Virus record (IMG/VR): IMGVR_UViG_3300013137_000070
Coordinates: 1-32,101 of that record
Strand: one strand, 5' to 3'
From: a virus
Length of the DNA stretch: 32,101 nt
Below the pieces are notes generated by a model, which saw only the letters and a program-made list of their open reading frames with translations, was not told the origin of the DNA and ran no database searches. This document shows, piece after piece, positions 4,388-27,857 of the stretch; position 1 is the first letter of the stretch, and every line of letters begins with the position of its first letter. The translations under genes were made by a program, and so were the position numbers.

Positions 4388-4909
4388 ATGAGTAATGCTT
4401 TTGTTTACAGAATGCCTGCTGGTGTCCCGGGAGATGTTGGTCGGCTTGAACAGGCCACTATTGAACCGAATCAGTACGATACCGATTATCCTTGCCTGGC
4501 GTATGGTATCTTGGTAAAGTTGGTCGCCAGTAAGATCCGCCCCATTGCTTCCGGGGACGATATCTCGGCTGTTGGTTACGGATTCTTGGTCCGCCCGTAC
4601 CCGATTCAGGAACCTATTGGTTCGGCTGCAAGTTCTCAGGCACTTTCTGCTGGTGCACCTAATACGGCTCTTGCGGCTGATGTTCTCCGTAGAGGGTACA
4701 TGACTGTCAAGGTTACAGCTGGTGGTGCAACGGCTATTGCTTCTATTGCCAAGGGAGATGCTGTGTATGTGCGTTCTACTGCAGATACCGGCAAAGTAGT
4801 TGGCGATATTGAAGCTGGCAGCATTTCCGGGAATGATACCGTAACAGGGGCTATCTTCATGGGCGCTGCTGACACCGATGGCAATGTTGAAATTGCCTAT
4901 AACATTTAA
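4388..4909 (+). CDS. capsid cement / decoration protein (gp24-like)
   Basis: This 173-residue protein opens with FVYRMPAGVPGDVGR (5-19) and continues with a TIEP segment, as in the structural cement proteins encoded just before DUF2184-type capsid genes. Such proteins bind the outside of the capsid shell and stiffen it. The middle (about 75-150) is Ala/Gly/Thr-rich and beta-strand-like (GYMTVKVTAGG, AIASIAKGDAVYVR), with no membrane segment. AAAGGAGG at 4371-4378 precedes ATG 4388. The position between scaffold and major capsid fits. An antisense open frame covers the same span and is a codon-usage shadow. Confidence 0.75.
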   Translation: MSNAFVYRMPAGVPGDVGRLEQATIEPNQYDTDYPCLAYGILVKLVASKIRPIASGDDISAVGYGFLVRPYPIQEPIGSAASSQALSAGAPNTALAADVLRRGYMTVKVTAGGATAIASIAKGDAVYVRSTADTGKVVGDIEAGSISGNDTVTGAIFMGAADTDGNVEIAYNI

Positions 4910-4937
4910 CACAGATCAGAAAAGGAGGAAATATATA

Positions 4938-5912
4938 ATGATGACATTTGATAAGTATACACTCGACAGTACCGGCGCTTTTCTGGTCGGCGAGCTTGAA
5001 AGATTGGACCAGAAACTTCATGAACCCTTGGTTGCAGTGACCTGGGGTCGGGACATTGATCTTCGCGAAGATGTAAGTATGGCTGATGAATCATCCAGCT
5101 ATACCAATTCTACCTTTGCCGCTGCTGGTGGGATTGCTCCTACGGGCAAGAACTTCGTTGGTAAAGCAACCAATTCTATCCCTGGCATCGGCCTGGATAT
5201 TGGCAAGACCGTCAGCCCGTTGTATCTGTGGGCTACCGAGATTTCCTATACCATCCCGGAACTGCTTTCCGCCCAGCAGCTGGGTCGCCCTGTTGACGAA
5301 CAGAAATTTGCTGGTATGCAGTTGAAGTGGCAGATGGACATCGACGAAATGGTTTATATCGGCGACTCTGCTTATGGGAAGTATGGCTTGACCAATAGCA
5401 CTGCAGTTACGACTGGCTTTGTTGATGCCGGGACTTCCGGGTATACTCAGTGGACCAATAAGACTCCTGCTGAGATTCTGCATGATGTCAACTCCTTGAT
5501 TTCTGCTTGCTGGGCCGCTGCCGGTTATGCCGTGTGCCCCACTAAGCTTCTTCTGCCTCCGGCTCAGTTTGCTTACATTACCAGTCAGACCGTTTCTACG
5601 GCAGGTAATGTTTCGATCCTGAAGTTCCTGCAGGACAATTGCATCAGCCTCAGCATTAACGGCAAGAAGCTGGATATCCAGCCGGTCAAGTGGCTGGTTG
5701 GTCGCGGTGTTGCTGCTGGTTCCCCTTCAACTGCTACTGACCGTATGGTTGTTTACACGCAGGATAAGATGCGCGTACGCTTCCCACTCGTTCCGCTGCA
5801 GAGGACTCCGCTCGAGTACAGGAGCATAGCACATTTAACAACGTACTTCGGGCGTCTTGGTTGCGTAGAAACGGTTTACCCAGAATGCGTACATTATGCC
5901 GACGGCATATAA
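4938..5912 (+). CDS. major capsid protein (DUF2184 type)
   Basis: AAAGGAGG at 4921-4928 sets the start at ATG 4938, with another ATG at 4941; a longer upstream ATG at 4878 lies inside the cement gene and has no ribosome-binding site. The 324-residue product has the layout of the DUF2184 capsid family: an N-terminal acidic part with a WGRDIDLREDV segment, an EISYTIPELLSAQQLGRPVD helix region, WQMDIDEMVYIGD, and a late IQPVKWLVGRG strand followed by an RTPLEYRSIAHLTTYFGRLG C-terminus. It forms the HK97-fold shell. Codon use is GC-richer than in its neighbours, as is common for a highly expressed gene. Confidence 0.9.
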   Translation: MMTFDKYTLDSTGAFLVGELERLDQKLHEPLVAVTWGRDIDLREDVSMADESSSYTNSTFAAAGGIAPTGKNFVGKATNSIPGIGLDIGKTVSPLYLWATEISYTIPELLSAQQLGRPVDEQKFAGMQLKWQMDIDEMVYIGDSAYGKYGLTNSTAVTTGFVDAGTSGYTQWTNKTPAEILHDVNSLISACWAAAGYAVCPTKLLLPPAQFAYITSQTVSTAGNVSILKFLQDNCISLSINGKKLDIQPVKWLVGRGVAAGSPSTATDRMVVYTQDKMRVRFPLVPLQRTPLEYRSIAHLTTYFGRLGCVETVYPECVHYADGI

Positions 5913-8626: not shown

Positions 8627-10216
8627 ATGCCAATAGCCACTAATATACATGTCCATCCCTTTTTTGTAACCTGTACTGCAGGGGACAATGGGATTGTTAG
8701 GACTCCGGGACCTTCTTATCTGGATGAGTATAGCAATTTAATAGGCTATGTAAATGAAGGAACAGATGCTGTGTTCTTCATTTCTCCTAATCAAGGGTAC
8801 GGGGTGTTAGATGTTATTGTGGATGAGGTGTCTGTGGGGCCAGTTTTAAACTGGGAGTTCTCTAATATTGCGGAAGATCATTCCATTAGCGCCTCATTCT
8901 ATGCGTGCTCTTGGGATTTTACTGTTAATCTTGTTGGTCCTGAAAGCGCTCGTTGGATGGTGGACGAAGGTGCATGGAAGGTTAGTGGAGAGGTCATATC
9001 TATTCCCTCCGGGACCCATCGGGTTAGTTATTTAAATGTTGATCACTGGACTTCTCCAATAGATGAAATTGTTTATTTATCTCAGGATGAAAGCTTAGAC
9101 AGGGTTTATATTTCGCAGTATCTTACTATTACTTCTTCCTCTGGTAGTAATGGTTCAATTTCTCCTTTAGGGAGCACTTTAGTAGCATATGAAGGAAGCT
9201 GCACGTATTTAATATCCCCAGATGTTGGCTATGATTCCTCTGTTATGGTAGATGGGATTGATCAAGGGGGCATAGAAGAATACACTTTTGATAATGTCAT
9301 TGATGATCATACGATTTCTGCTTCTTTTGTCCGTAGTGCTCTAACAATCATGTCGTCTTCTGGAGACAACGGTTCAATTTTCCCTGCGGGGGAGATATCA
9401 ATTGCATATGAGCAGTCTATTCTTTTTGAAATATCTCCTGTTGAAGGGTATCGCGTAGAAGATGTCTTGGTTGACGGCGTAAGCGTAGGTTCTGTGGAAC
9501 AGTACGCTTTTTTAGATGTAACAATAAACCATACAATTTCTGCAACTTTTTCTACCTGGCAGTATTTTACGATTACTCCGTCTGTGAATGACCCCTTGAC
9601 AGGTTTAATAGTTGCTGAGGCCGAAAGCAATACTGTTGTTCAAGGAGGAAGTATAATATATGATGTATACGCGTTTCCGAATTTTTATGTGCGAGATGTT
9701 ACAGTAGATGGGGAGAGATACATATGCGGCCGTACAATAACTCATTATTCGTATGAATTTTCTAATGTCCAGCAGAACCACACAATTTCTGCGTATTTTA
9801 GCAATCTGCTTGATATTCAATTTTTCTTGTCTTTGCCTATGTCTTTAAACCTTTCTTCTCCGAGTTTATCTAAAATAGAAGAGACTCCTGTGAGCTCGAG
9901 TTTTTCTATGAATCTTCCTACTTCACCCGGTTTATCTTCTCCTTCTGCAGTAGTCTTTAGCTCCCTTGGCACTGCTACGATATCTATTGCCGTCCCGGGA
10001 GTAGTCACCAAATCAAGTCATGGTTTAATAGAGAATGATGAAATTAGTTTTTCAACAACGGGAGTTTTGCCGAATCCAATTGCCCCAGGGAAGAGTTTTT
10101 TTGTTCATAAACTTACAGATGACACTTTTAATATTATGGTGGTCCCTGATGGAAGTTACGTTGATACGACAGGGACTTCTTCGGGAGTTCACACTTTATG
10201 GAAAAGGGCAGTATAG
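8627..10216 (+). CDS. virion surface protein with InlB-B-like repeats
   Basis: This 529-residue protein contains about four copies of a ~70-residue repeat of the divergent InlB B-repeat type: residues 12-92, 166-234, 238-309 and 313-391. Each has SSGxNGSI-like starts, a YEGS...ISP strand, a VDG turn (VLVDGVSVGSVEQYAF) and an HTISASF end. Residues 97-165 form a more divergent unit. Residues 446-525 hold a phage-type module with SSHGLIENDEISF and a TFNIMVVPDG strand, seen in several virion proteins. No signal peptide or membrane segment is present. It is encoded between neck and sheath, so it may be a head-tail collar or whisker-like decoration that binds sugar or host surface; that is inference. 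Translation starts four bases after the neck gene stop. Confidence 0.75.
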   Translation: MPIATNIHVHPFFVTCTAGDNGIVRTPGPSYLDEYSNLIGYVNEGTDAVFFISPNQGYGVLDVIVDEVSVGPVLNWEFSNIAEDHSISASFYACSWDFTVNLVGPESARWMVDEGAWKVSGEVISIPSGTHRVSYLNVDHWTSPIDEIVYLSQDESLDRVYISQYLTITSSSGSNGSISPLGSTLVAYEGSCTYLISPDVGYDSSVMVDGIDQGGIEEYTFDNVIDDHTISASFVRSALTIMSSSGDNGSIFPAGEISIAYEQSILFEISPVEGYRVEDVLVDGVSVGSVEQYAFLDVTINHTISATFSTWQYFTITPSVNDPLTGLIVAEAESNTVVQGGSIIYDVYAFPNFYVRDVTVDGERYICGRTITHYSYEFSNVQQNHTISAYFSNLLDIQFFLSLPMSLNLSSPSLSKIEETPVSSSFSMNLPTSPGLSSPSAVVFSSLGTATISIAVPGVVTKSSHGLIENDEISFSTTGVLPNPIAPGKSFFVHKLTDDTFNIMVVPDGSYVDTTGTSSGVHTLWKRAV

Positions 10217-19837: not shown

Positions 19838-20869
19838 ATGTCAGCAAATAATTTCAAACAATTCGATACTGGTAAGACCAATATGATGGATGATGCTACA
19901 TACGATGCTTCTACCCAGAGGGCTGGGGGAGTCCAGACCGGAGTTGCGTCATCACAGCTTCATAACAAGCTTTTTTATCAGTTGAGTACATTTGTGTCTG
20001 CTTTTGGGGCGATGATGTCCAGTAAAGGCATTGAGATCGAAGATGCCACTTCAGTTGACACCTATAATGATCTTGTTACAAAGCTTGGCAATATTCTAAT
20101 TTTTGGCGAAGGCGGTCATACAATAAAAGACGAAGGATCAGCATTAACTCAAAGAACTAATTTAAATTTTACTGGTTCTGGTGTTACCGTTACTGATGAT
20201 TCTGGCAATAATGCTTCTGTAGTAACAATACCTGCTACTGGTGGGTTGATAACAATTTACGATGCTCCTGGTTCCGGGACATATACTGTTCCCACCGGGA
20301 CTACAACCTTAAAAGTTGCAATTTTTGGAGCTGGCGGAGGGGGAGGGATATCCCTCCCTGAGGCAGGAGGGCAAACCGAAGCAACTTCAGGAGGGTATTC
20401 AAAGATTGTTATCGCTGCCGTCGATATAATCGCTGGTGGAGGAACTGGAGGGATGTCAGATAGCACTGTGGGGGATGGTGGCACTATTTCAGATTCGACG
20501 GTTCTTCCTTACTTGTCTCTTTCTCATATTGGATCCGCTGGGGCAGTTGGGCAGAACGATGGAGTTTCGGGAGGTGGAGGAGCCAGCGGGTTTTTTGGGG
20601 GGCAGAATATAGCAACAACCCCAACTGTTCAGACGAACGGAAACGATGGAAATATGGGAGCTGGTGGAGGAGGAGGGTATTCAAACCAACTCGCTGCTCC
20701 TTCGGGGTCGGGAGGAGGTGGAGGAGCATATATTGAACTTTATGTAGAGTCCCCTGCATCCTCTTATTCCTATACTGTGGGGGCCGGAGGCACCGGGGGA
20801 ACTTGGGGTGGCGCAACCCATGGCGGGGCTGGTGGAAATGGTGCGGTTATTTTCGAATGTTTTTCATAG
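19838..20869 (+). CDS. tail fibre / receptor-binding protein with glycine-rich C-domain
   Basis: The 343-residue protein has a fibre-like N-terminus, an HTIKDEGSALTQRTNLNF module (94-111) followed by GSGVTVTDDSGN common in phage fibres, and from about 138 a Gly-rich domain with FGAGGGGG, SGGGGASGFFGG, MGAGGGGGYSN, SGGGGGAYIEL and VGAGGTGGTWGG. Glycine-rich sandwich domains bind receptors at fibre tips in T-even phages; the same use is likely here. Its single chaperone-like gene follows directly. AAGGAGG precedes ATG 19838. No separate longer fibre is seen in the window. Confidence 0.8.
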   Translation: MSANNFKQFDTGKTNMMDDATYDASTQRAGGVQTGVASSQLHNKLFYQLSTFVSAFGAMMSSKGIEIEDATSVDTYNDLVTKLGNILIFGEGGHTIKDEGSALTQRTNLNFTGSGVTVTDDSGNNASVVTIPATGGLITIYDAPGSGTYTVPTGTTTLKVAIFGAGGGGGISLPEAGGQTEATSGGYSKIVIAAVDIIAGGGTGGMSDSTVGDGGTISDSTVLPYLSLSHIGSAGAVGQNDGVSGGGGASGFFGGQNIATTPTVQTNGNDGNMGAGGGGGYSNQLAAPSGSGGGGGAYIELYVESPASSYSYTVGAGGTGGTWGGATHGGAGGNGAVIFECFS

Positions 20870-20878
20870 GGGGAGAGC

Positions 20879-21214
20879 ATGAAAGTAAAGTATGTTGATT
20901 ATGACGGATCTGAACAGCAGATGCAGCAGATGAGAGAAGAGCAATCCCTGCTTGGATGGGTAATGAGATGTTTTGTAAACAACAGTCGGCAGAAATACAT
21001 TGAATTTAGTCTTTTTTCGGATTTTGTAGTTCAGATAGAGCAAAAGAGAAATGATCTTCTTTATAAGTATGATTGGACTCAGCTTCCAGACACAAGGTTG
21101 ACGGCAGAGCAAATTCAGGAATGCAGAACATATCGAGAAGCTCTGAGAGGGATAACGTCTCAAATTACAACCATTGGGACTCCAATTGTATGGCCGGAGG
21201 CTCCTTTGGTATGA
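20879..21214 (+). CDS. tail fibre assembly chaperone-like protein
   Basis: The 111-residue product ends with YKYDWTQLPDTRLTAEQIQE and YREALRGITSQI before WPEAPLV, the C-terminal pattern of phage tail assembly chaperones that follow fibre genes. The N-terminal part is a short beta segment and a basic helix. GGGGGAGAGC precedes ATG 20879. The stop overlaps the next ATG (ATGA), linking it to the glycan cassette. Confidence 0.75.
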   Translation: MKVKYVDYDGSEQQMQQMREEQSLLGWVMRCFVNNSRQKYIEFSLFSDFVVQIEQKRNDLLYKYDWTQLPDTRLTAEQIQECRTYREALRGITSQITTIGTPIVWPEAPLV

Positions 21215-21711
21215 ATCCTTTGCTGATAGTAGGTTGTCACACCGATGCAGTAGAGGAAGCCGAGAAGGCGTCTTTACTCATTGCTAATGAATGCGACTAC
21301 CTTGCTGTTGGTAAAGATGCAGTGAAATTAAAATTTAATTGGAAGTATGTAGCTACATACCATAAAGAGGATCTTGTGGATATTTTATCCCAGATAGACA
21401 AAAGAAAGCTTATTGATTGTCAGATAATTTCGCATGAGAAAGCCGCTGGAGTAGATGTTATTATCCCTTTTGAGAAGCCATCTGGATCTTCTGCCCTTCT
21501 TGGGGCTTTAGCTGGGATTCAATTTGGATATACCAAGATGATCCTCTGCGGGTGCCCCTTAGAAGGAGGGAATAATAAAGGTCATCTTTATAATCAATTT
21601 AGAATAGGATGGGAGAAAAAGAAAATTATTGTAGAAAGTTGTGTTCGTTCAATGTCTGGGTGGACAAAGAATTTCTTAGGTTCTCCATCCCTTGACTGGT
21701 TAGTGGAGTAG
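21211..21711 (+). CDS. DUF115/Rossmann-like protein, possible glycan enzyme
   Basis: ATG 21211 overlaps the preceding TGA and gives 166 residues; an upstream in-frame ATG at 21073 lies deep in the chaperone gene and is rejected. The protein opens with a Rossmann-like strand (LLIVGCHTDAVEEAEK), then YLAVGKDAVKLKFNW, VISH-type segment IISHEKAAGVDV, KPSGSSALLGALAGIQFGY (89-107) and ILCGCPLEGG (111-120). It resembles the DUF115/sialyltransferase-like proteins found beside phage and bacterial glycan genes. No catalytic residues are known to me. It leads the cassette of methyltransferases and glycosyltransferases. Confidence 0.6.
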   Translation: MNPLLIVGCHTDAVEEAEKASLLIANECDYLAVGKDAVKLKFNWKYVATYHKEDLVDILSQIDKRKLIDCQIISHEKAAGVDVIIPFEKPSGSSALLGALAGIQFGYTKMILCGCPLEGGNNKGHLYNQFRIGWEKKKIIVESCVRSMSGWTKNFLGSPSLDWLVE

Positions 21712-21736
21712 TTTCACTTTTTGGGGGAAGTAATAA

Positions 21737-22363
21737 ATGGATAAAGAACATCAGAAGCTATTTGAATTAATTTGGGACAGGGGCAATTTCAGACAAGGCT
21801 CTACGGCATTGAGAATGTCAGAGTTAATCAAAGGGATAATCCCGCCGGGGACAAAAATCAACGATTACGGGTCTGGAACAGGCCGTGTAGAGGTAAATCT
21901 TTTAAAGTGTGGCAAAAACTACTCCTTTAGTATGATAGACATAGCTTCCAACGCCTTAGACCCTGAGCCAAGAAGCTTACTCGGCCCTTATCTAAAGTTT
22001 ACAGTGGCTGACCTTCAAGATCTCCCTCCAGAGATAGAGAAAACAGAGTGGGGCTTGTGTATCAATGCCTTAATGAATATCAAGCCAAAGATGCTTGATC
22101 CAATCCTTTCTGAAATTAGTAGAACCTGTAGCAATTTAATCTTTGAAGCCTATGATATGGATGATTTTCGTTGCGGTTACCAGCTTTCCATGAATCAGTT
22201 AAATAAGGATCAGTGGCATAGGAAATTGAATGAGTATTGGGGGGATGTTCGGTTTATTCAGTCTCCAGAGTCTAAACGTCGTTACATATTTATTTGCAGG
22301 CAAATAACGGAGGAGTGCTCTAACAGGAGTTTGAGTGGCCCCCATCACAAAGATAACTGTTAG
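21737..22363 (+). CDS. class I SAM-dependent methyltransferase
   Basis: The 208-residue protein shows SAM-binding motif I as INDYGSGTGRVEVNL (41-55), a motif II acidic strand SFSMIDIAS (63-71), and a motif post II DLQDLPPE. The order and length (~200) fit a small-molecule or glycan methyltransferase. The substrate is unknown; a sugar is likely from the neighbours. GGGGGAAG precedes ATG 21737. The end of the gene forms a strong inverted repeat with the intergenic region. Confidence 0.78.
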   Translation: MDKEHQKLFELIWDRGNFRQGSTALRMSELIKGIIPPGTKINDYGSGTGRVEVNLLKCGKNYSFSMIDIASNALDPEPRSLLGPYLKFTVADLQDLPPEIEKTEWGLCINALMNIKPKMLDPILSEISRTCSNLIFEAYDMDDFRCGYQLSMNQLNKDQWHRKLNEYWGDVRFIQSPESKRRYIFICRQITEECSNRSLSGPHHKDNC

Positions 22364-22374
22364 AGCATAACTCC
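22312..22374 (+). repeat. inverted repeat across the methyltransferase stop
   Basis: CTCTAACAG (22318-22326) pairs perfectly with CTGTTAGAG (22357-22365), and outside it GGAGT (22312-22316) pairs with ACTCC (22370-22374), round a 30-base loop. The stop codon (22361-22363) is inside the right arm. There is no T-run. It may be a weak attenuator, an mRNA-stabilising structure, or a trace of recombination at a cassette edge. Confidence 0.5.
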
Positions 22375-22392
22375 GACTATAAAGGAGAACAA

Positions 22393-23133
22393 ATGATTTC
22401 GGTGATCACACCTACTGGAGATAGGGAGATTGCTTTTAAACTCTGTCTGTCTTGGATCAATCAGCAAACAGTTAAACCAGATCAATGGATTGTCGTGGAT
22501 GATGGCAAAAGAGAGAAATTTAATATAGATTCTCTCCCCTCTTTTGCACAGTATGTTAGACGTGAGCCTCAGCTTACAGACCACAAGTTCACTCTTGTGG
22601 AGAATATAAAAGAGGCCGTCAAATACATTGCTGGCAATCAGATCTTCATCATGGAGGATGATGAGTATTATGCTCCTCAGTATCTGGAAGTTATGTCCAA
22701 ACACCTTGAGCCTGTGGCCGTAGTTGGTATAGGATGTAGTAAATATTATCACCTGCCTACTGGAGGATATGAAGTTCATCAAAATAAGGAACATGCTTCT
22801 CTCGCTCAGACTGGATTCACAGATAAATTCCTTCCAAATTTCAATTCTTGCATAGAGAAAGGGATGGGGACCTGTTGGCTTGACGACCAACTCTGGAAAG
22901 CCGTTCAAGCAAGTCAAAGATCTTCCGCTAAGATTCCTTTTGACCTTTTTGTTGATAATGGTTCTCCTTTATATGTCGGGATGAAAGGCTTGCCTGGGAG
23001 AGATGGCATTGGGGTAGGACATAAGCCTCAATCATATCGCGGCCGAGTTGACGATAAGAATAGAACCTTGCTTAAACAATGGATTCCTCTGCATTATCAA
23101 AAATACCTTGATGTGCTGGAGAAGATTAGATGA
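22393..23133 (+). CDS. GT-A family glycosyltransferase (GT2-like)
   Basis: The 246-residue protein has the GT2 fold marks: MISVITPTGDREIAFKLCL at the start, WIVVDDG (32-38) for nucleotide binding, and the metal-binding segment IFIMEDDEYYAP (84-95). The remaining half lacks a membrane segment. It probably transfers a sugar from a nucleotide donor to a glycan in the cytoplasm. AAAGGAGA precedes ATG 22393. The stop overlaps the next gene (ATGA). Confidence 0.8.
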   Translation: MISVITPTGDREIAFKLCLSWINQQTVKPDQWIVVDDGKREKFNIDSLPSFAQYVRREPQLTDHKFTLVENIKEAVKYIAGNQIFIMEDDEYYAPQYLEVMSKHLEPVAVVGIGCSKYYHLPTGGYEVHQNKEHASLAQTGFTDKFLPNFNSCIEKGMGTCWLDDQLWKAVQASQRSSAKIPFDLFVDNGSPLYVGMKGLPGRDGIGVGHKPQSYRGRVDDKNRTLLKQWIPLHYQKYLDVLEKIR

Positions 23134-24122
23134 ATAAATTTATCGTTATAACCACTGTTAACGAACCTTCTGAGGCTATCGAGAAGTTTGCACATCTCCC
23201 TGGGTGGAAGGTCATTGTAGTAGGAGATGAGAAGACTCCCAAGGAGTGGCATAATGAAGACGTCAAATACCTAAGCCTTGATGATCAGAAGGAGCTATTC
23301 CCTGTCTTTAGTTCTCAGATTCCCTGGAATTGTTATCAAAGAAAAAACCTTGGCTATCTCTACGCTATTAGAGAGGGCGCAGACCTCATCTTTGAGTCGG
23401 ATGACGACAATACCCCCTATGAGGATTTCAACTCTCTTGTTGCCTCTCTAATGGCCTTTAAACCGGGTTCTTTGAACAGAGTTAGTAGCGTTACAAACTG
23501 GGCGAATATGTATGAGTACTTTGGGAGCTGTGATTGTTGGCCCAGAGGGTATCCTCTGCAGTATATAGGCACCTCTGCAGCAGGTGTTGGTGTTGGGAGT
23601 AATGATTGGTCTGTAGCTCAGTTTCTCGCCGACCGTGACCCTGATGTGGATGCTATTTACCGCCTGACCAATGGAGATGGCACCATATTTGAGGAGGATA
23701 GACACTTCATCCTGGACAAGAATACATTCTGCCCCATGAATTCGCAAGCTACCCTATGGAAGAAAGAAGCTTTCCCTCTGATGTTTCTCCCGGTTGGGGT
23801 CCCGGGGCGTGTGACAGATATTCTTAGAGGATATATTGTGCAGCCCTGTCTGTGGGCAATGAATCGATCGGCTATATTCGCAAGCCCTAATGTATATCAG
23901 GAGAGGAATGAGCATAATCTTCTCAAAGATTTTAAAGAAGAGATTCCTCTATACTTGAATGCCGATAGGTGGTGCAAGGAAATTATGCATCTTGCCGGCA
24001 ACTCAATGGAGGCCAATTATTTCCAGGCTATAACCAGGCTAATAATGGTAGAGGCTTTACCGTATGACAATGTAGACTATTATAAACTGTTTTTAAGAGA
24101 AATGGGGGATTACTATGGATAA
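23130..24122 (+). CDS. STELLO/DUF288-like glycosyltransferase
   Basis: The 330-residue product opens with FIVITTVNEPSEAIEKF, then GWKVIVVGDEKTP, QRKNLGYLYAIREGADLIFE (70-89) and SDDDNTPYEDF (90-100). This order, with the acidic D-D-D-N, is the signature of the STELLO/DUF288 family of GT-A-like proteins. Family members act on cell-surface or cell-wall glycans. No membrane segment is seen here, unlike plant STELLO. It overlaps both neighbours by 4 and 8 bases, so the genes are co-translated. Confidence 0.78.
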   Translation: MNKFIVITTVNEPSEAIEKFAHLPGWKVIVVGDEKTPKEWHNEDVKYLSLDDQKELFPVFSSQIPWNCYQRKNLGYLYAIREGADLIFESDDDNTPYEDFNSLVASLMAFKPGSLNRVSSVTNWANMYEYFGSCDCWPRGYPLQYIGTSAAGVGVGSNDWSVAQFLADRDPDVDAIYRLTNGDGTIFEEDRHFILDKNTFCPMNSQATLWKKEAFPLMFLPVGVPGRVTDILRGYIVQPCLWAMNRSAIFASPNVYQERNEHNLLKDFKEEIPLYLNADRWCKEIMHLAGNSMEANYFQAITRLIMVEALPYDNVDYYKLFLREMGDYYG

Positions 24123-24732
24123 GAAGGTGTTTGAAGAAGAGTTTAAGAAGTTGTTGTCCCAGGTAAACTTAGATGGTTCGGTTGTAGGGAAGAGACTTAA
24201 CCAGAATCCTCCTGAGTTTATGGATTTCCTCCGGTTTAGTAAGGAATATCTTGATAAGAAGAAAGTTATTCGGCCTGTGGTTGTAGAGATTGGGATTCTT
24301 GATGGTATGCAGAAAAGATTCTATGAACAACTTCTTGATGCCCAATACTACAGTATTGATATAGACCCGAAGTCCTCTGCAACCATAAAAGGGGATTCTA
24401 CAGCAAGTAGTACGATTAGACAGTTGAAAACTATTTTGGGGAGAAGAAAGATAGATCTCTTATTTATAGACGGTCTTCATACATACAATGGGGTGGAAGG
24501 CGATTTTGATGCTTACTATCCTTTGACTCAGCACCTTATTGGAGTTCATGATATTTTTACCCCCAAGATTGTTCCCCAAGAATCTGTCGATGTAATGCGG
24601 TGGTGGTCAGATTACAAAAAACTCTCAAAGGATAAGTGGTTCGAGATCCAGCATCCGAATGACCGTCCAGAGACAGCCTTTAATGGCCGTCCTTTAGGGA
24701 TAGGCATTGTAGTAAAAGAGGGGTTAAAATGA
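24115..24732 (+). CDS. class I SAM methyltransferase (CmcI/Methyltransf_24-like)
   Basis: The 205-residue protein shows VVVEIGILDGMQKRFYEQLL (55-74) as motif I, SIDIDPKSS (80-88) as motif II, KIDLLFIDGLHTY (112-124), and GVHDIF (143-148), the usual order of the CmcI-like methyltransferases of glycan and antibiotic clusters. The C-terminus GIGIVVKEGLK stops just where the next gene begins (ATGA). The N-terminal 200 residues of the gene at 25481 are a diverged copy of this protein. Confidence 0.78.
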   Translation: MDKKVFEEEFKKLLSQVNLDGSVVGKRLNQNPPEFMDFLRFSKEYLDKKKVIRPVVVEIGILDGMQKRFYEQLLDAQYYSIDIDPKSSATIKGDSTASSTIRQLKTILGRRKIDLLFIDGLHTYNGVEGDFDAYYPLTQHLIGVHDIFTPKIVPQESVDVMRWWSDYKKLSKDKWFEIQHPNDRPETAFNGRPLGIGIVVKEGLK

Positions 24733-25472
24733 AGATTGCCGTGATTACAAGATGGTTTAATGAGGAGTTCTTCGCGCCTTTCTTTCTTTCCCACTATTCT
24801 GAGTTTGCGGATAAGATTATTGTATTTCTTGAGCAAACTTCTACTGATAGGAGTAGAGAAATTGTTCCAACTTTTCCTAAAGCGGAACTGGTCATGGTTA
24901 GCAATGGCGAGACCCTTAATGATAGAATACTCTCTGATATGATGTCCAATGCGGCAGCTTCTTTGGCTGATTATGACTGGGTTATTCGGGCGGATGCTGA
25001 CGAATTGACCTTTCCATATAATTTTGAATCCCCAAGGGAAGTCCTCTCCAGAGCTACGGGCAATGTCATTAACACCTGGTATCGATGGGTGTATAGGCAT
25101 AACTCTGAATCAGATCTTGATCCCTCTAAACCTGCTGTATTTCAAAGAAGGCATGGTGGGGAGTATCGTATCTGGCCTGGCATGGGACAGAACTACTCTA
25201 AGCCTACAATTGTCAAGCCCTCTGCAAAAGTAAGATGGACAGCAGGAGAGCAATCTATTCTCCCAAATCCTTTAGTCAAGATGAATTCCGAATCCTGGGA
25301 TGGAGTTCATTGGCAGACAGCGGATGTTGAGCAATGGATTAAAAGGAATGCGTCTAATGATAAGAGGCTCTCTGAAGAGAATAAGAAGAATAAGTGGGGA
25401 GTTAAGAACTTTACTGAAGAGATGATTCGAAAAGAGTGTGATTCACACCTTAATGATTTGCAACTATTTTAG
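24729..25472 (+). CDS. GT-A glycosyltransferase (Glyco_tranf_2_4-like)
   Basis: The 247-residue product starts IAVITRWFNEEFFAPFFL (3-20), has KIIVFLEQTSTDRSREIV and a metal-binding VIRADADEL segment (Asp89 and Asp91), followed by GVHWQTADVE and a terminal HLNDLQLF. This is the pattern of the Glyco_tranf_2_4 group of sugar transferases. The C-terminal half of the gene at 25481 is homologous to it throughout. It is coupled to the methyltransferase by ATGA. Confidence 0.78.
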   Translation: MKIAVITRWFNEEFFAPFFLSHYSEFADKIIVFLEQTSTDRSREIVPTFPKAELVMVSNGETLNDRILSDMMSNAAASLADYDWVIRADADELTFPYNFESPREVLSRATGNVINTWYRWVYRHNSESDLDPSKPAVFQRRHGGEYRIWPGMGQNYSKPTIVKPSAKVRWTAGEQSILPNPLVKMNSESWDGVHWQTADVEQWIKRNASNDKRLSEENKKNKWGVKNFTEEMIRKECDSHLNDLQLF

Positions 25473-25480
25473 GAGAAGAA

Positions 25481-26818
25481 ATGGACTTAGAGAAATTCAC
25501 ACTACTTGCTGATGAGATAGGCTTTGCTATTGAACGTCCGACGGGGAGACTTTTGCAAAACAGGGGTGAGTTTAAGAACTTTCTTCTGTTTGTTGATACT
25601 GTGTTTAAAGCTCGTGGAATCATTAATCCTATTGTTGTTGAGATTGGCATAGCTTATAATGGTCAGAAGAGATTCTATGAGGAGCTGATGGGTGCTACCC
25701 ATATTAGCATTGATATTAATCCTCAAGGGGGACCAGATATCCTTGGGGATTCTCACGATCCTGAAACTTTAAAAAGATTAAAGGAAATGCTTAATGGCCG
25801 GTCTGTAGATCTCTTGTTTATCGATGGCGGCCATTTATTCCATGAGGTTAAACAGGATTATCAGATGTACGAGCCCTTGGCCTCGCATCTTGTTGCTCTT
25901 CACGATATTCATCTTGTACGTTGGGCTTCCGACGTTAGCGAGGTCAATTACTATTGGCAGAAATTGGTGGAACTGGAGAGAGAAAAGACGACCATAACCT
26001 TTAGAAAGTATTATGATTGTCCTGATCAGAAGCCTGGTCAGATGGGCATTGGTCTTATAGTTAAAGAGGGAGGGCAAAAAATAACTGTTCTCACAAAGTG
26101 GTACAATGAAGAGATTCTTGCTCCGTTTTTTCTCAAACATTATTCTTTTGCTGACGAGATAGTTATTTTCCTTGACAGTAAAACGGATGATAAGACAGAA
26201 GAGATCATTTCTCAATATAAAAATGCTCGTATTGTGAAGTGTGACTACCCGAATCAAGTATACAATAACCGGATTGCAATAGATCGTATGAATCAAGAAG
26301 CTCTTAGCATTCCTTCTGGTTGGATAATTTGTGCAGACGCTGATGAATTTTTATTCCCCTCTGAAAACAGGAGCATGCGCGATTTTCTTGGTGATGTTGT
26401 TGGCAATGTAGTTTATGCGAATATGTGGCAGGTTTACCGGAATAAAACAGAGATGGATCTTGATGCGTCCTTGCAGCCTATCTGGTTAAGGCGTTATGGT
26501 GATCCAGATCGGGAAACGGGGATAAATAAGCTTTATTGTAAACCCTCTGTAATAAAGGCAGGGTGCGGGATTAGATGGCAGATTGGCCATCATTATTTAG
26601 AAGCAAACTATCAGATTCAAGAGTCAAAGGTGTGCTTAAATGGTGCGCATTGGACTGCAGCCGATCCGGTTCTTATTCCTCGCTGTTTAAGATGGAGGAT
26701 AGAGAATATGGACAAGGAGTCTATTGATAAACAATGGGGCAGTTCAAAGTATTATCGGACAGAAGAGGAGTTAAGAAAAATATGCGAGGACCATCTTAAT
26801 GATCCTCAACTATTCTAA
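25481..26818 (+). CDS. fused methyltransferase-glycosyltransferase
   Basis: This 445-residue protein joins two domains that match the two preceding separate proteins. Residues 1-197 are a CmcI-like methyltransferase (VVEIGIAYNGQKRFYEEL from 52; VDLLFIDGGHLFHE near 109-122; ALHDIH at 139-144). Residues 200-445 are a GT-A glycosyltransferase (KITVLTKWYNEEILAPFF from 200; ICADADEF with Asp286 and Asp288; terminal HLNDPQLF). The join GIGLIVKEGGQKITVL aligns with the stop/start overlap between the two separate genes. The two domains probably act in sequence on one glycan. GGAGAAG precedes ATG 25481. The protein is intact. Confidence 0.85.
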   Translation: MDLEKFTLLADEIGFAIERPTGRLLQNRGEFKNFLLFVDTVFKARGIINPIVVEIGIAYNGQKRFYEELMGATHISIDINPQGGPDILGDSHDPETLKRLKEMLNGRSVDLLFIDGGHLFHEVKQDYQMYEPLASHLVALHDIHLVRWASDVSEVNYYWQKLVELEREKTTITFRKYYDCPDQKPGQMGIGLIVKEGGQKITVLTKWYNEEILAPFFLKHYSFADEIVIFLDSKTDDKTEEIISQYKNARIVKCDYPNQVYNNRIAIDRMNQEALSIPSGWIICADADEFLFPSENRSMRDFLGDVVGNVVYANMWQVYRNKTEMDLDASLQPIWLRRYGDPDRETGINKLYCKPSVIKAGCGIRWQIGHHYLEANYQIQESKVCLNGAHWTAADPVLIPRCLRWRIENMDKESIDKQWGSSKYYRTEEELRKICEDHLNDPQLF

Positions 26819-26831
26819 GGAGGAGTAAATT

Positions 26832-27254
26832 ATGCAAGCGACATTAATCAGGATAATGACTGGTAATGATGGAGTGATTTCTGAGTTTTCTATTGATGAT
26901 GGAGCTTTTAAATGTTTTGCTCTTGCGCCGGATTCTTTAGATGAAAAGAAGTTCTTCCTTCCAAATGGCGAGTACGAGTGCAGGAGATTTCATGGGTCTA
27001 AATGGCCCAACACTTTTGAAATCGTAGAACCAGAAAAGGATAATGTCGATGGACACAAATACTTATTGTTTCATGCTGGCAATACTGAGCATGATTCTTT
27101 GGGCTGCCAGCTCTTAGGCTCTACTATTGGCAAGTTGAATGGCGACAGGGCGGTTCTTAATTCAGGGAATACATTTAGGACCTTTTTGAAATACACAGAA
27201 AACGTCGATCATTTTACCTTGACTGTCACTGAAGATTATGGGGTCTTAACATGA
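26832..27254 (+). CDS. DUF5675 family protein
   Basis: The 140-residue protein shows the DUF5675 marks: an N-terminal strand pair, FFLPNGEYECRRFHGSKWPN, YLLFHAGNTEHDSLGCQLLG (77-96) and a late VLNSGNTFRTFLKYT. Proteins of this group are encoded near lysis genes in many phages; their activity is not known to me, and the conserved His and Cys suggest a possible enzyme. AAGGAGGAG precedes ATG 26832. It overlaps the spanin gene by four bases. Confidence 0.8.
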   Translation: MQATLIRIMTGNDGVISEFSIDDGAFKCFALAPDSLDEKKFFLPNGEYECRRFHGSKWPNTFEIVEPEKDNVDGHKYLLFHAGNTEHDSLGCQLLGSTIGKLNGDRAVLNSGNTFRTFLKYTENVDHFTLTVTEDYGVLT

Positions 27255-27742
27255 TACCTTGGACTTGGTTTTTAAATCCGAAAAATATGATCTTGGTCGC
27301 TTTGGCCTGTGTCCTTACTCTTGGTGCCGGGTATATTCTCATGCAAAAAATTGAACTTACTAAAAACAAAGCTTCTATAGAGACGTTGACTCAAAGAAAT
27401 TTAGTTCTTGATGTTCAAGTGGAAGCGTATAAAAAGAATATTGAGGACATTAAAGCTTTGAAGCAGAGAGAGCGGATTATTGAAAAGAAAACGGCGACAA
27501 TTAGAGAGATAGTCAAAGAAGTACCAGTAGATCGACCTGTAGGAGGTGTTGATTGTGGAACCCCACAAGATAAAGATGCACTTGAAAAGATTCGTAAGGC
27601 TGTGGTTGCTACCACTGATTATTTTAATTCCGGTATTAGGATGCAGCAGCTGCCCGGTAGTTCAACCGTTGACTCCAAAGTATTGTCCTCCCCCGTCGAG
27701 GCCGGTCCTAAGTCAACCATCGACGGAGCAACAGTTCATTGA
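27251..27742 (+). CDS. Rz: inner-membrane spanin (Rz-like)
   Basis: The 163-residue product has one N-terminal membrane segment (about 13-31, MILVALACVLTLGAGYIL), then a charged helix (about 32-90) with QRERIIEKKTATIREIVKE, as in i-spanins that span the periplasm. The gene overlaps the Rz1-like frame from 27555 in another phase and the DUF5675 gene by ATGA. With the outer lipoprotein it would fuse inner and outer membranes at the end of infection. The ribosome-binding site is weak, so coupling is likely. Confidence 0.8.
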   Translation: MIPWTWFLNPKNMILVALACVLTLGAGYILMQKIELTKNKASIETLTQRNLVLDVQVEAYKKNIEDIKALKQRERIIEKKTATIREIVKEVPVDRPVGGVDCGTPQDKDALEKIRKAVVATTDYFNSGIRMQQLPGSSTVDSKVLSSPVEAGPKSTIDGATVH

Positions 27743-27857
27743 CAATTTTGTTACTGTTGTTGATTATGTCTTAAAGCTGGAATCAACACTTAAATGCTAT
27801 GAGGAGGGACCGAAGAATGGAACAGATAAAAAACTTCCTGTTGTCAATGTTCAGTGA
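27555..27857 (+). CDS. Rz1: outer-membrane spanin lipoprotein (Rz1-like)
   Basis: AGGAGG at 27541-27546 stands eight bases before GTG 27555, which starts a frame inside the Rz gene in a different phase. A signal with RLWLLPLIILIPVLGC ends in a lipobox (VLGC, Cys30 from the GTG). The mature part is proline-rich (CPPPSRPVLSQP), as in Rz1. The longer GTG at 27546 and the ATG at 27576 are alternatives. About 100 residues; it extends past the end of Rz to 27857. It pairs with the i-spanin across the periplasm, which indicates a Gram-negative host. Confidence 0.78.
   Translation: MEPHKIKMHLKRFVRLWLLPLIILIPVLGCSSCPVVQPLTPKYCPPPSRPVLSQPSTEQQFIDNFVTVVDYVLKLESTLKCYEEGPKNGTDKKLPVVNVQ

Follow-up and report, generated by a model that had tools for sequence, protein, structure and literature searches.

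In the literature covered here (PMC12363180, PMC12619734), glycosylation of tailed-phage virions is documented mainly in a few Mycobacterium phages. As related in these two papers, mycobacteriophage enzymes make capsid and tail-tube glycans, the phages with virion glycosylation being Che8, Corndog, and Myrna (Freeman 2023), and such glycans were reported to shield from antibodies. GT75 mutases (MtdL/UAM) are characterized by an FAD-free interconversion of pyranose and furanose forms that depends on a divalent metal. A further point of comparison is MtdL, a GT75 mutase for which Arg159 was proposed as the nucleophile and Asp260 as the base, with His287, a residue kept in active members, coordinating Mn; both His287 and Arg257 are lost in the inactive plant member AtRGP5 (PMC9937993). 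Here we describe a seven-gene cassette at positions 21211–26818 of the IMG/VR virus record IMGVR_UViG_3300013137_000070, a single linear record of 32,101 bp representing an uncultured virus; the record was analyzed at its full length and is called the window below. The prediction of a late-operon glycan cassette at this site is well supported by protein families, conserved motifs, synteny, and gene fusions. We consider it moderately likely that the cassette glycosylates a protein of the virion (fibre, capsid, or decoration protein) in the cytosol, adding a short O-methylated, possibly furanose-containing glycan that is predicted here from the genes.

The window encodes head morphogenesis, protease, major head, tail sheath, tape measure, and baseplate proteins, indicating a contractile-tailed phage. 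It is probably a genome fragment, because the relative G002, whose sheath is 75% identical, lies on a 98,971-bp contig.

Predicted enzymes encoded by the cassette

Seven long co-directional open reading frames (ORFs), designated genes 1–7, filled the cassette, with a tail fibre assembly chaperone on the 5' side and a lysis block containing a DUF5675 protein and a spanin on the 3' side. The first-pass annotation, made from the sequence without database searches, had placed such a set, including a fused seventh gene, between the chaperone and the lysis genes, and the ORFs and the families of the bordering proteins confirmed this. It had also described overlapping starts and stops, which were found at four of the eight junctions (chaperone/gene 1, 3/4, 4/5, and 5/6, by 4–8 bp each), the TGA of the chaperone overlapping the ATG of gene 1; at the other four junctions there were gaps of 25 bp (1/2), 29 bp (2/3), 8 bp (6/7), and 13 bp (gene 7 and the next gene). 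All seven genes, and the annotated neighbors given below, lie on the plus strand. Each of genes 1–7 had homologues in other phages, and the cassette is therefore not a chance assembly. A near-identity search of the cassette against phage records gave no match. The result of a promoter and terminator scan was no better than that for shuffled sequences.

Three of the earlier labels were borne out by scores above the Pfam cut-offs. Gene 2 (21737–22363, 208 aa) is a predicted S-adenosylmethionine methyltransferase with the motif NDYGSGTGR (Methyltransf_25, 31 bits; cut-off 27), and its homologue in G002 was 41% identical. Gene 3 (22393–23133, 246 aa) is a predicted GT2 glycosyltransferase (Glycos_transf_2, 29 bits; cut-off 23.3) with the motifs ITPTGDR...VVDDG...MEDDE and at least 80 viral relatives. 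Gene 6 (24729–25472, 247 aa) is a predicted GT-A glycosyltransferase with a DADE motif (Glyco_tranf_2_4, 35 bits; cut-off 27.5). Gene 5 (24115–24732, 205 aa), an O-methyltransferase-like protein, had been called CmcI-like; its membership in Methyltransf_24 (PF13578) held at 28.0 bits (cut-off 26.3), but its resemblance to CmcI was weak (E 0.11). Gene 7 (25481–26818, 445 aa) was read from its Pfam domains and from trees as an in-frame fusion of a Methyltransf_24 domain (approximately residues 1–198) and a Glyco_tranf_2_4 domain (approximately residues 199–445); the N-terminal half scored 23.4 bits against Methyltransf_24, slightly under the cut-off of 26.3, and was 36–40% identical to gene 5. 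Among the invariant alignment columns, the acidic DxDE motif of the GT-A enzymes and the F.DG.H and HD motifs of the Methyltransf_24 domains were kept. In a search of solved structures the Glyco_tranf_2_4 family lay weakly near GmaR and an entry named 'Glycosyl transferase'; a sequence search for solved structural relatives of genes 3, 5, and 7 found none.

Genes 5–6 and gene 7 have the look of a pair that arose by duplication. In the methyltransferase tree, however, gene 5 grouped with proteins of viral loci L030 and L126 (support 99/98 and 100/99). The methyltransferase domain of gene 7 grouped with that of L035 (98/98). Since the two grouped with different phages, the two methyltransferase–glycosyltransferase pairs are old and of separate descent. 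On the basis of the methyltransferase tree we rejected the idea that gene 7 arose by copying genes 5 and 6 in place; the glycosyltransferase tree was weaker on this point. The methyltransferase and glycosyltransferase genes are adjacent but separate in L030, L126, and L035, and fusions of the two occurred in L214, L215, L216, and L218 and in the 735-kb phage genome LR756501.

Gene 4 (23130–24122, 330 aa), identified by a PDB sequence search and residue mapping, is a GT75-like homologue of NDP-pyranose (nucleoside diphosphate pyranose) mutases. It matched solved structures of MtdL (PDB 7XPR and others) over approximately 230 residues, at 1e-24 when searched by itself and at 7e-43 when a profile of seven members was used; the matched chains are titled 'Transglycosylse', and we infer that they are MtdL from the residue numbering in the paper, which fitted the aligned chain exactly (D109-D110-D111, R159, S228, R257, and H287). 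In this alignment D91-D92-D93 of gene 4 corresponded to DDD109–111 of MtdL, R139 to R159, D172 to D195, S205/Q206 to S228/Q229, R227 to R257, D230 to D260, and R259 to R289, and Gln257 replaced the metal ligand His287. The equivalents of DDD, R159, D195, Q229, R257, D260, and R289, Ser228 being the exception, were each kept in 83 of 84 phage homologues, and the His287 position was occupied by Gln in 81 of the 84. Because the Mn ligand is absent, the predicted mutase activity is uncertain, and gene 4 was placed with the GT75-like homologues and not among the proven mutases. Such activity is nevertheless plausible, and a Gln at the metal site could still bind metal.

The first-pass label of gene 4, STELLO-like, did not survive this comparison. 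The score against STELLO (PF03385) was 25.4 bits (26 bits in a second search), under the gathering cut-off of 27.8, and the match covered only the final third of gene 4 and 100 of 387 profile positions; the match to the GT75 mutase was far stronger. GT75-like mutase homologues were common in viral contigs (L134–L212, at least 170 matches), with the His-to-Gln change in nearly all that were read. Pattern scans of viral and bacterial contigs with the single sequences of genes 4 and 7 gave no match, and a literature search for GT75 in phages, whose scope left out most subscription journals, found no paper.

Gene 1 (21211–21711, 166 aa), the first in the cassette, encodes a small conserved protein with the family motifs GSSALLG...GY.K.ILCGCP and RSMSGWT in a 23-member alignment. 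A first-pass assignment to DUF115 found no direct support: gene 1 itself had no Pfam match, and MptE-like (PF01973) was matched weakly by three of the 23 relatives (best E 0.0047). A profile comparison gave no match between gene 1 and a sialyltransferase-like family, C5, that occurs in similar cassettes. Five relatives of gene 1 were found in bacterial genomes; relatives were present on contigs of metagenome-assembled genomes of Deltaproteobacteria/Syntrophaceae and, weakly, in Shinella and Pseudaminobacter, where they adjoin phage-like genes. A tblastn search of genes 1 and 3 against phage records gave no match. Two gene 1 paralogues, in tandem or close together, were seen in L110, L111, L114, L115, L119, L120, and L123, and in some of these loci the gene 1 ORF extends into a glycosyltransferase-like domain (WDGRDYYSPEYVN...). 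The contig IMGVR_UViG_3300013136_000067 (G001; locus L025) matches the window at 99.9% identity and lacks one base at window position 21595, a deletion that truncates gene 1 ahead of the conserved RSMSGWT motif; this is either a true inactivation or an assembly error.

Recurrence of the module and the site in related phages

When viral contigs were scanned with genes 3, 1, 4, and 5, approximately 250 loci were obtained, some contigs being represented by several loci. A recurring order was found in unrelated phages, often immediately downstream of the capsid gene, in which gene 1 or C5 is followed by gene 3, (gene 4), a Methyltransf_24 gene, and a Glyco_tranf_2_4 gene. In the pooled loci, C5 and gene 3 were adjacent 25 times, gene 3 and Methyltransf_24 19 times, Methyltransf_24 and Glyco_tranf_2_4 14 times, and genes 3 and 4 twice. 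In L126 the major head protein gene is followed by gene 1 and two small genes, and the rest of the contig holds genes 3, 4, and 5. In L214, downstream of decoration and presumed capsid genes, there is a C5–gene 3 fusion, then gene 4, then a Methyltransf_24–Glyco_tranf_2_4 fusion. At positions 5667–9407 of L215, C5, gene 3, Methyltransf_24, and Glyco_tranf_2_4 form one ORF of 1246 aa, followed by a second Methyltransf_24 gene and adjoining minor head genes; the presence of all four domains in one ORF argues for a joint function. Gene 1 and C5 shared no locus among 57 C5 loci and 24 gene 1 loci, which came from separate scans with repeated contigs, so that we claim no significance for this count; it suggests that the roles of the two are interchangeable.

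Among 109 genes upstream of cassettes bearing C5 or gene 1, the commonest annotated products in a PHROG tally, in which some genes may count under several PHROGs, were major head protein, head decoration, portal, neck1, head-tail adaptor, and head protease. Downstream of the cassettes the corresponding tally gave minor head, head closure (Hc1), adaptor (Ad1), and neck proteins. A frequent neighbor, phrog_24071, was called capsid solely by its position after a decoration gene, and no solved relative of it was found. This location in capsid and neck operons is suggestive of a virion role, the tallies being raw counts with no background rate. Tentatively, and with less confidence than for the role of the cassette itself, we propose a modular virion-glycosylation system consisting of gene 1 or C5, GT2, (GT75-like, with the His-to-Gln metal site), Methyltransf_24, and Glyco_tranf_2_4, which might be widespread in the capsid/neck operons of unrelated tailed phages of environmental bacteria and might make O-methylated, furanose-containing virion glycans. 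A literature search for this module, within the same limits of scope as that for GT75, found no paper.

In related phages the site after the fibre gene had other contents. In G002 it holds homologues of genes 1, 2, and 3 (38–44% identity), the remainder consisting of WbqC, GH130/32-like, GNAT, DegT-like, and GT2 genes and further methyltransferase genes. L043 has a shorter set between the fibre gene and genes on the opposite strand, and L015/L023 have the fibre and a possible chaperone with no cassette up to the contig end. Such a swap at one site would be expected for a variable glycan under diversifying selection. On the contig IMGVR_UViG_3300035459_000118 (L022/L124) this site is occupied by a different and larger glycan cassette (WbqC, GH130/32-like, GNAT, DegT-like, glycosyltransferase, and methyltransferase genes); the DegT-like protein encoded there, at 218 aa, is short and possibly a fragment, and ThyX-like and SbcCD-like genes were noted by eye nearby. 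ORFs resembling homing endonucleases of the HNH/AP2 type were also seen by eye among the tail genes at positions 671–1171 of L015 and 2014–2685 of L024.

In the window, the upstream border of the cassette is the tail fibre assembly chaperone (20879–21214; PF16778, 4e-12; phrog_4912), preceded by a glycine-rich tail fibre (19838–20869; Pfam/PHROG-type annotation), which is one candidate acceptor of the glycan. A further candidate is the major head protein (4878–5912; phrog_264, 2.7e-84). The downstream border is the DUF5675 protein (26832–27254; PF18925, 1.6e-20), the first of the lysis block, followed by an Rz-like spanin (27251–27742; phrog_739, 9e-4). A small lipoprotein-like ORF (27546–27857) with the lipobox-like sequence LGCSSC lies out of frame with the spanin, in the usual overlapping Rz/Rz1 layout. 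Upstream of the tail sheath, an ORF of 529 aa (8627–10216) had no Pfam or PHROG match; its product is possibly a virion protein peculiar to this phage group.

Predicted role and alternative explanations

In the proposed pathway, gene 4 would convert a host NDP-pyranose into an NDP-furanose donor, as its homology to MtdL suggests. The GT-A glycosyltransferases encoded by genes 3, 6, and 7 would transfer sugars successively to the protein and then to the growing chain, and the methyltransferases of genes 2, 5, and 7 would cap or modify sugar hydroxyls. Gene 1 occupies the slot of the sialyltransferase-like protein in sister cassettes and, more speculatively, may initiate the glycan or be an additional transferase. 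The first-pass annotation judged the set sufficient for making a short methylated glycan, a view that is plausible and unproven; apart from the mutase homologue there were no genes for sugar-nucleotide synthesis, so that the donors would come from the host or from outside the 32-kb fragment. The glycan might possibly benefit stability, adsorption, or shielding, and the antibody shielding reported for mycobacteriophages need not hold for environmental phages.

That annotation had left both the virion and the host surface as targets, and the evidence favored the virion, given the capsid, portal, neck, and head-tail neighbors of the cassette elsewhere and the lack of membrane glycosyltransferases and flippases. 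In genes 1–7 no 19-residue segment exceeded a mean hydropathy of 1.43, indicating no membrane-like protein, and neither a membrane glycosyltransferase nor a flippase was found among them from Pfam families and hydropathy. Several points weigh against virion glycosylation. In this phage the cassette adjoins the fibre and lysis genes and not its own capsid gene; the Che8 glycosyltransferase genes lie at the genome end, away from the capsid gene, and show no detectable homology to the cassette; gene 4 has Gln at the Mn-ligand site that is lost in inactive AtRGP5 (PMC9937993); and in cyanophages the homologues of gene 4 belong to a cluster containing heptose and nucleotide-sugar genes, which could serve another glycan.

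The last of these points would also suit a cassette that remodels the host surface (lipopolysaccharide, capsule, or S-layer) against superinfection or re-adsorption to debris, in the manner of serotype-converting phages, as would the late genes adjoining the lysis genes and the resemblance of the WbqC and DegT-like genes of G002 to surface-polysaccharide genes. We regard this as unlikely, since neither a membrane protein nor a polyprenyl-phosphate transferase or flippase was seen in the cassette, the homologous cassettes elsewhere are embedded in capsid/neck operons, and late expression would allow little time for a change of the surface. Least probable of all is that genes 5–7 are a recent tandem duplication heading for loss in a cassette that is largely decaying cargo. 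The shortened gene 1 of G001 and the lost metal-ligand His of gene 4 would fit such decay; against it, gene 5 and the methyltransferase domain of gene 7 have separate and well-supported relatives (L030/L126, 99/98; L035, 98/98), which makes the pairs old, the catalytic motifs are intact in both pairs, the His-to-Gln change is common to 81 of 84 gene 4 homologues, and the deletion may be an assembly error.

CmcI-type methyltransferases act on small molecules, which would suit a cassette that makes a small glycoside or modifies a protein of the host, with the late operon merely providing strong late expression. MtdL-type mutases likewise occur in antibiotic pathways (PMC9937993). However, the cassette is not accompanied by genes for scaffold synthesis, export, or resistance, and in unrelated phages the module is associated with morphogenesis genes, so that we consider this explanation very unlikely. 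We attach equally little probability to modification of the phage DNA, in which glycosylated or methylated hypermodified bases would protect against restriction. Phage glycosyltransferases often act on DNA (PMC12619734), and genes 5 and 7 had PHROG matches named DNA methyltransferase, but these were weak and covered approximately 40–55 residues. The genes lie among late virion genes and not replication genes, and there was no homologue of thymidylate synthase/hydroxymethylase (PF00303) in the 98,971-bp relative G002, which is not decisive since the window is a fragment.

If virion glycosylation by this module is correct, a conserved set of this kind in the capsid gene regions of many unrelated phages would imply that sugar-coated virions are widespread, and the module genes would be markers for finding them. 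The GT75-like enzyme predicts furanose sugars on viruses, and the swapping of whole cassettes at one site between related phages would suggest selection on the glycan.

Comparison with known systems

Gene 4 resembles MtdL in the DDD motif, the catalytic Arg, and the equivalents of Asp195/Asp260, Gln229, Arg257, and Arg289. It differs in the replacement of His287 by Gln, of the base-selectivity residue Ser86 by Cys, and of Asp87 by Tyr, and MtdL comes from an antibiotic pathway whereas gene 4 belongs to a phage glycan cassette. The likeness to STELLO (PF03385), a family of plant Golgi proteins, was weak and limited to the final third of gene 4.

The Gtr cassettes for O-antigen serotype conversion likewise consist of sugar transfer genes carried by phages, one part of which varies. 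They include a membrane GtrA flippase and GtrB/Gtr, whereas the present cassette has no such genes and a different genomic location. The clusters of cyanophages S-T4 and Sf-CH8 also have a gene 4 homologue (33–34% identity) among methyltransferase and glycosyltransferase genes; they hold epimerase, heptose kinase/adenylyltransferase-like, and isomerase genes, none of which is in the cassette.

Virion glycosylation in mycobacteriophages, as described in the sources cited above, depends on phage-encoded glycosyltransferases, and genes 108–110 of Che8 form a short run of adjacent glycosyltransferase genes. Soluble phage-encoded glycosyltransferases, a trait of such systems, are also predicted in the cassette, where the GT2 and Glyco_tranf_2_4 enzymes had no transmembrane-like segment. 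Che8 differs in the position of these genes at the genome end, and the cassette in its three methyltransferase domains, its mutase homologue, and its late-operon position. A comparison of Che8 gp108–gp110 with genes 1–7 gave no meaningful match; therefore the cassette was not assigned to that enzyme set, though it may work alike.

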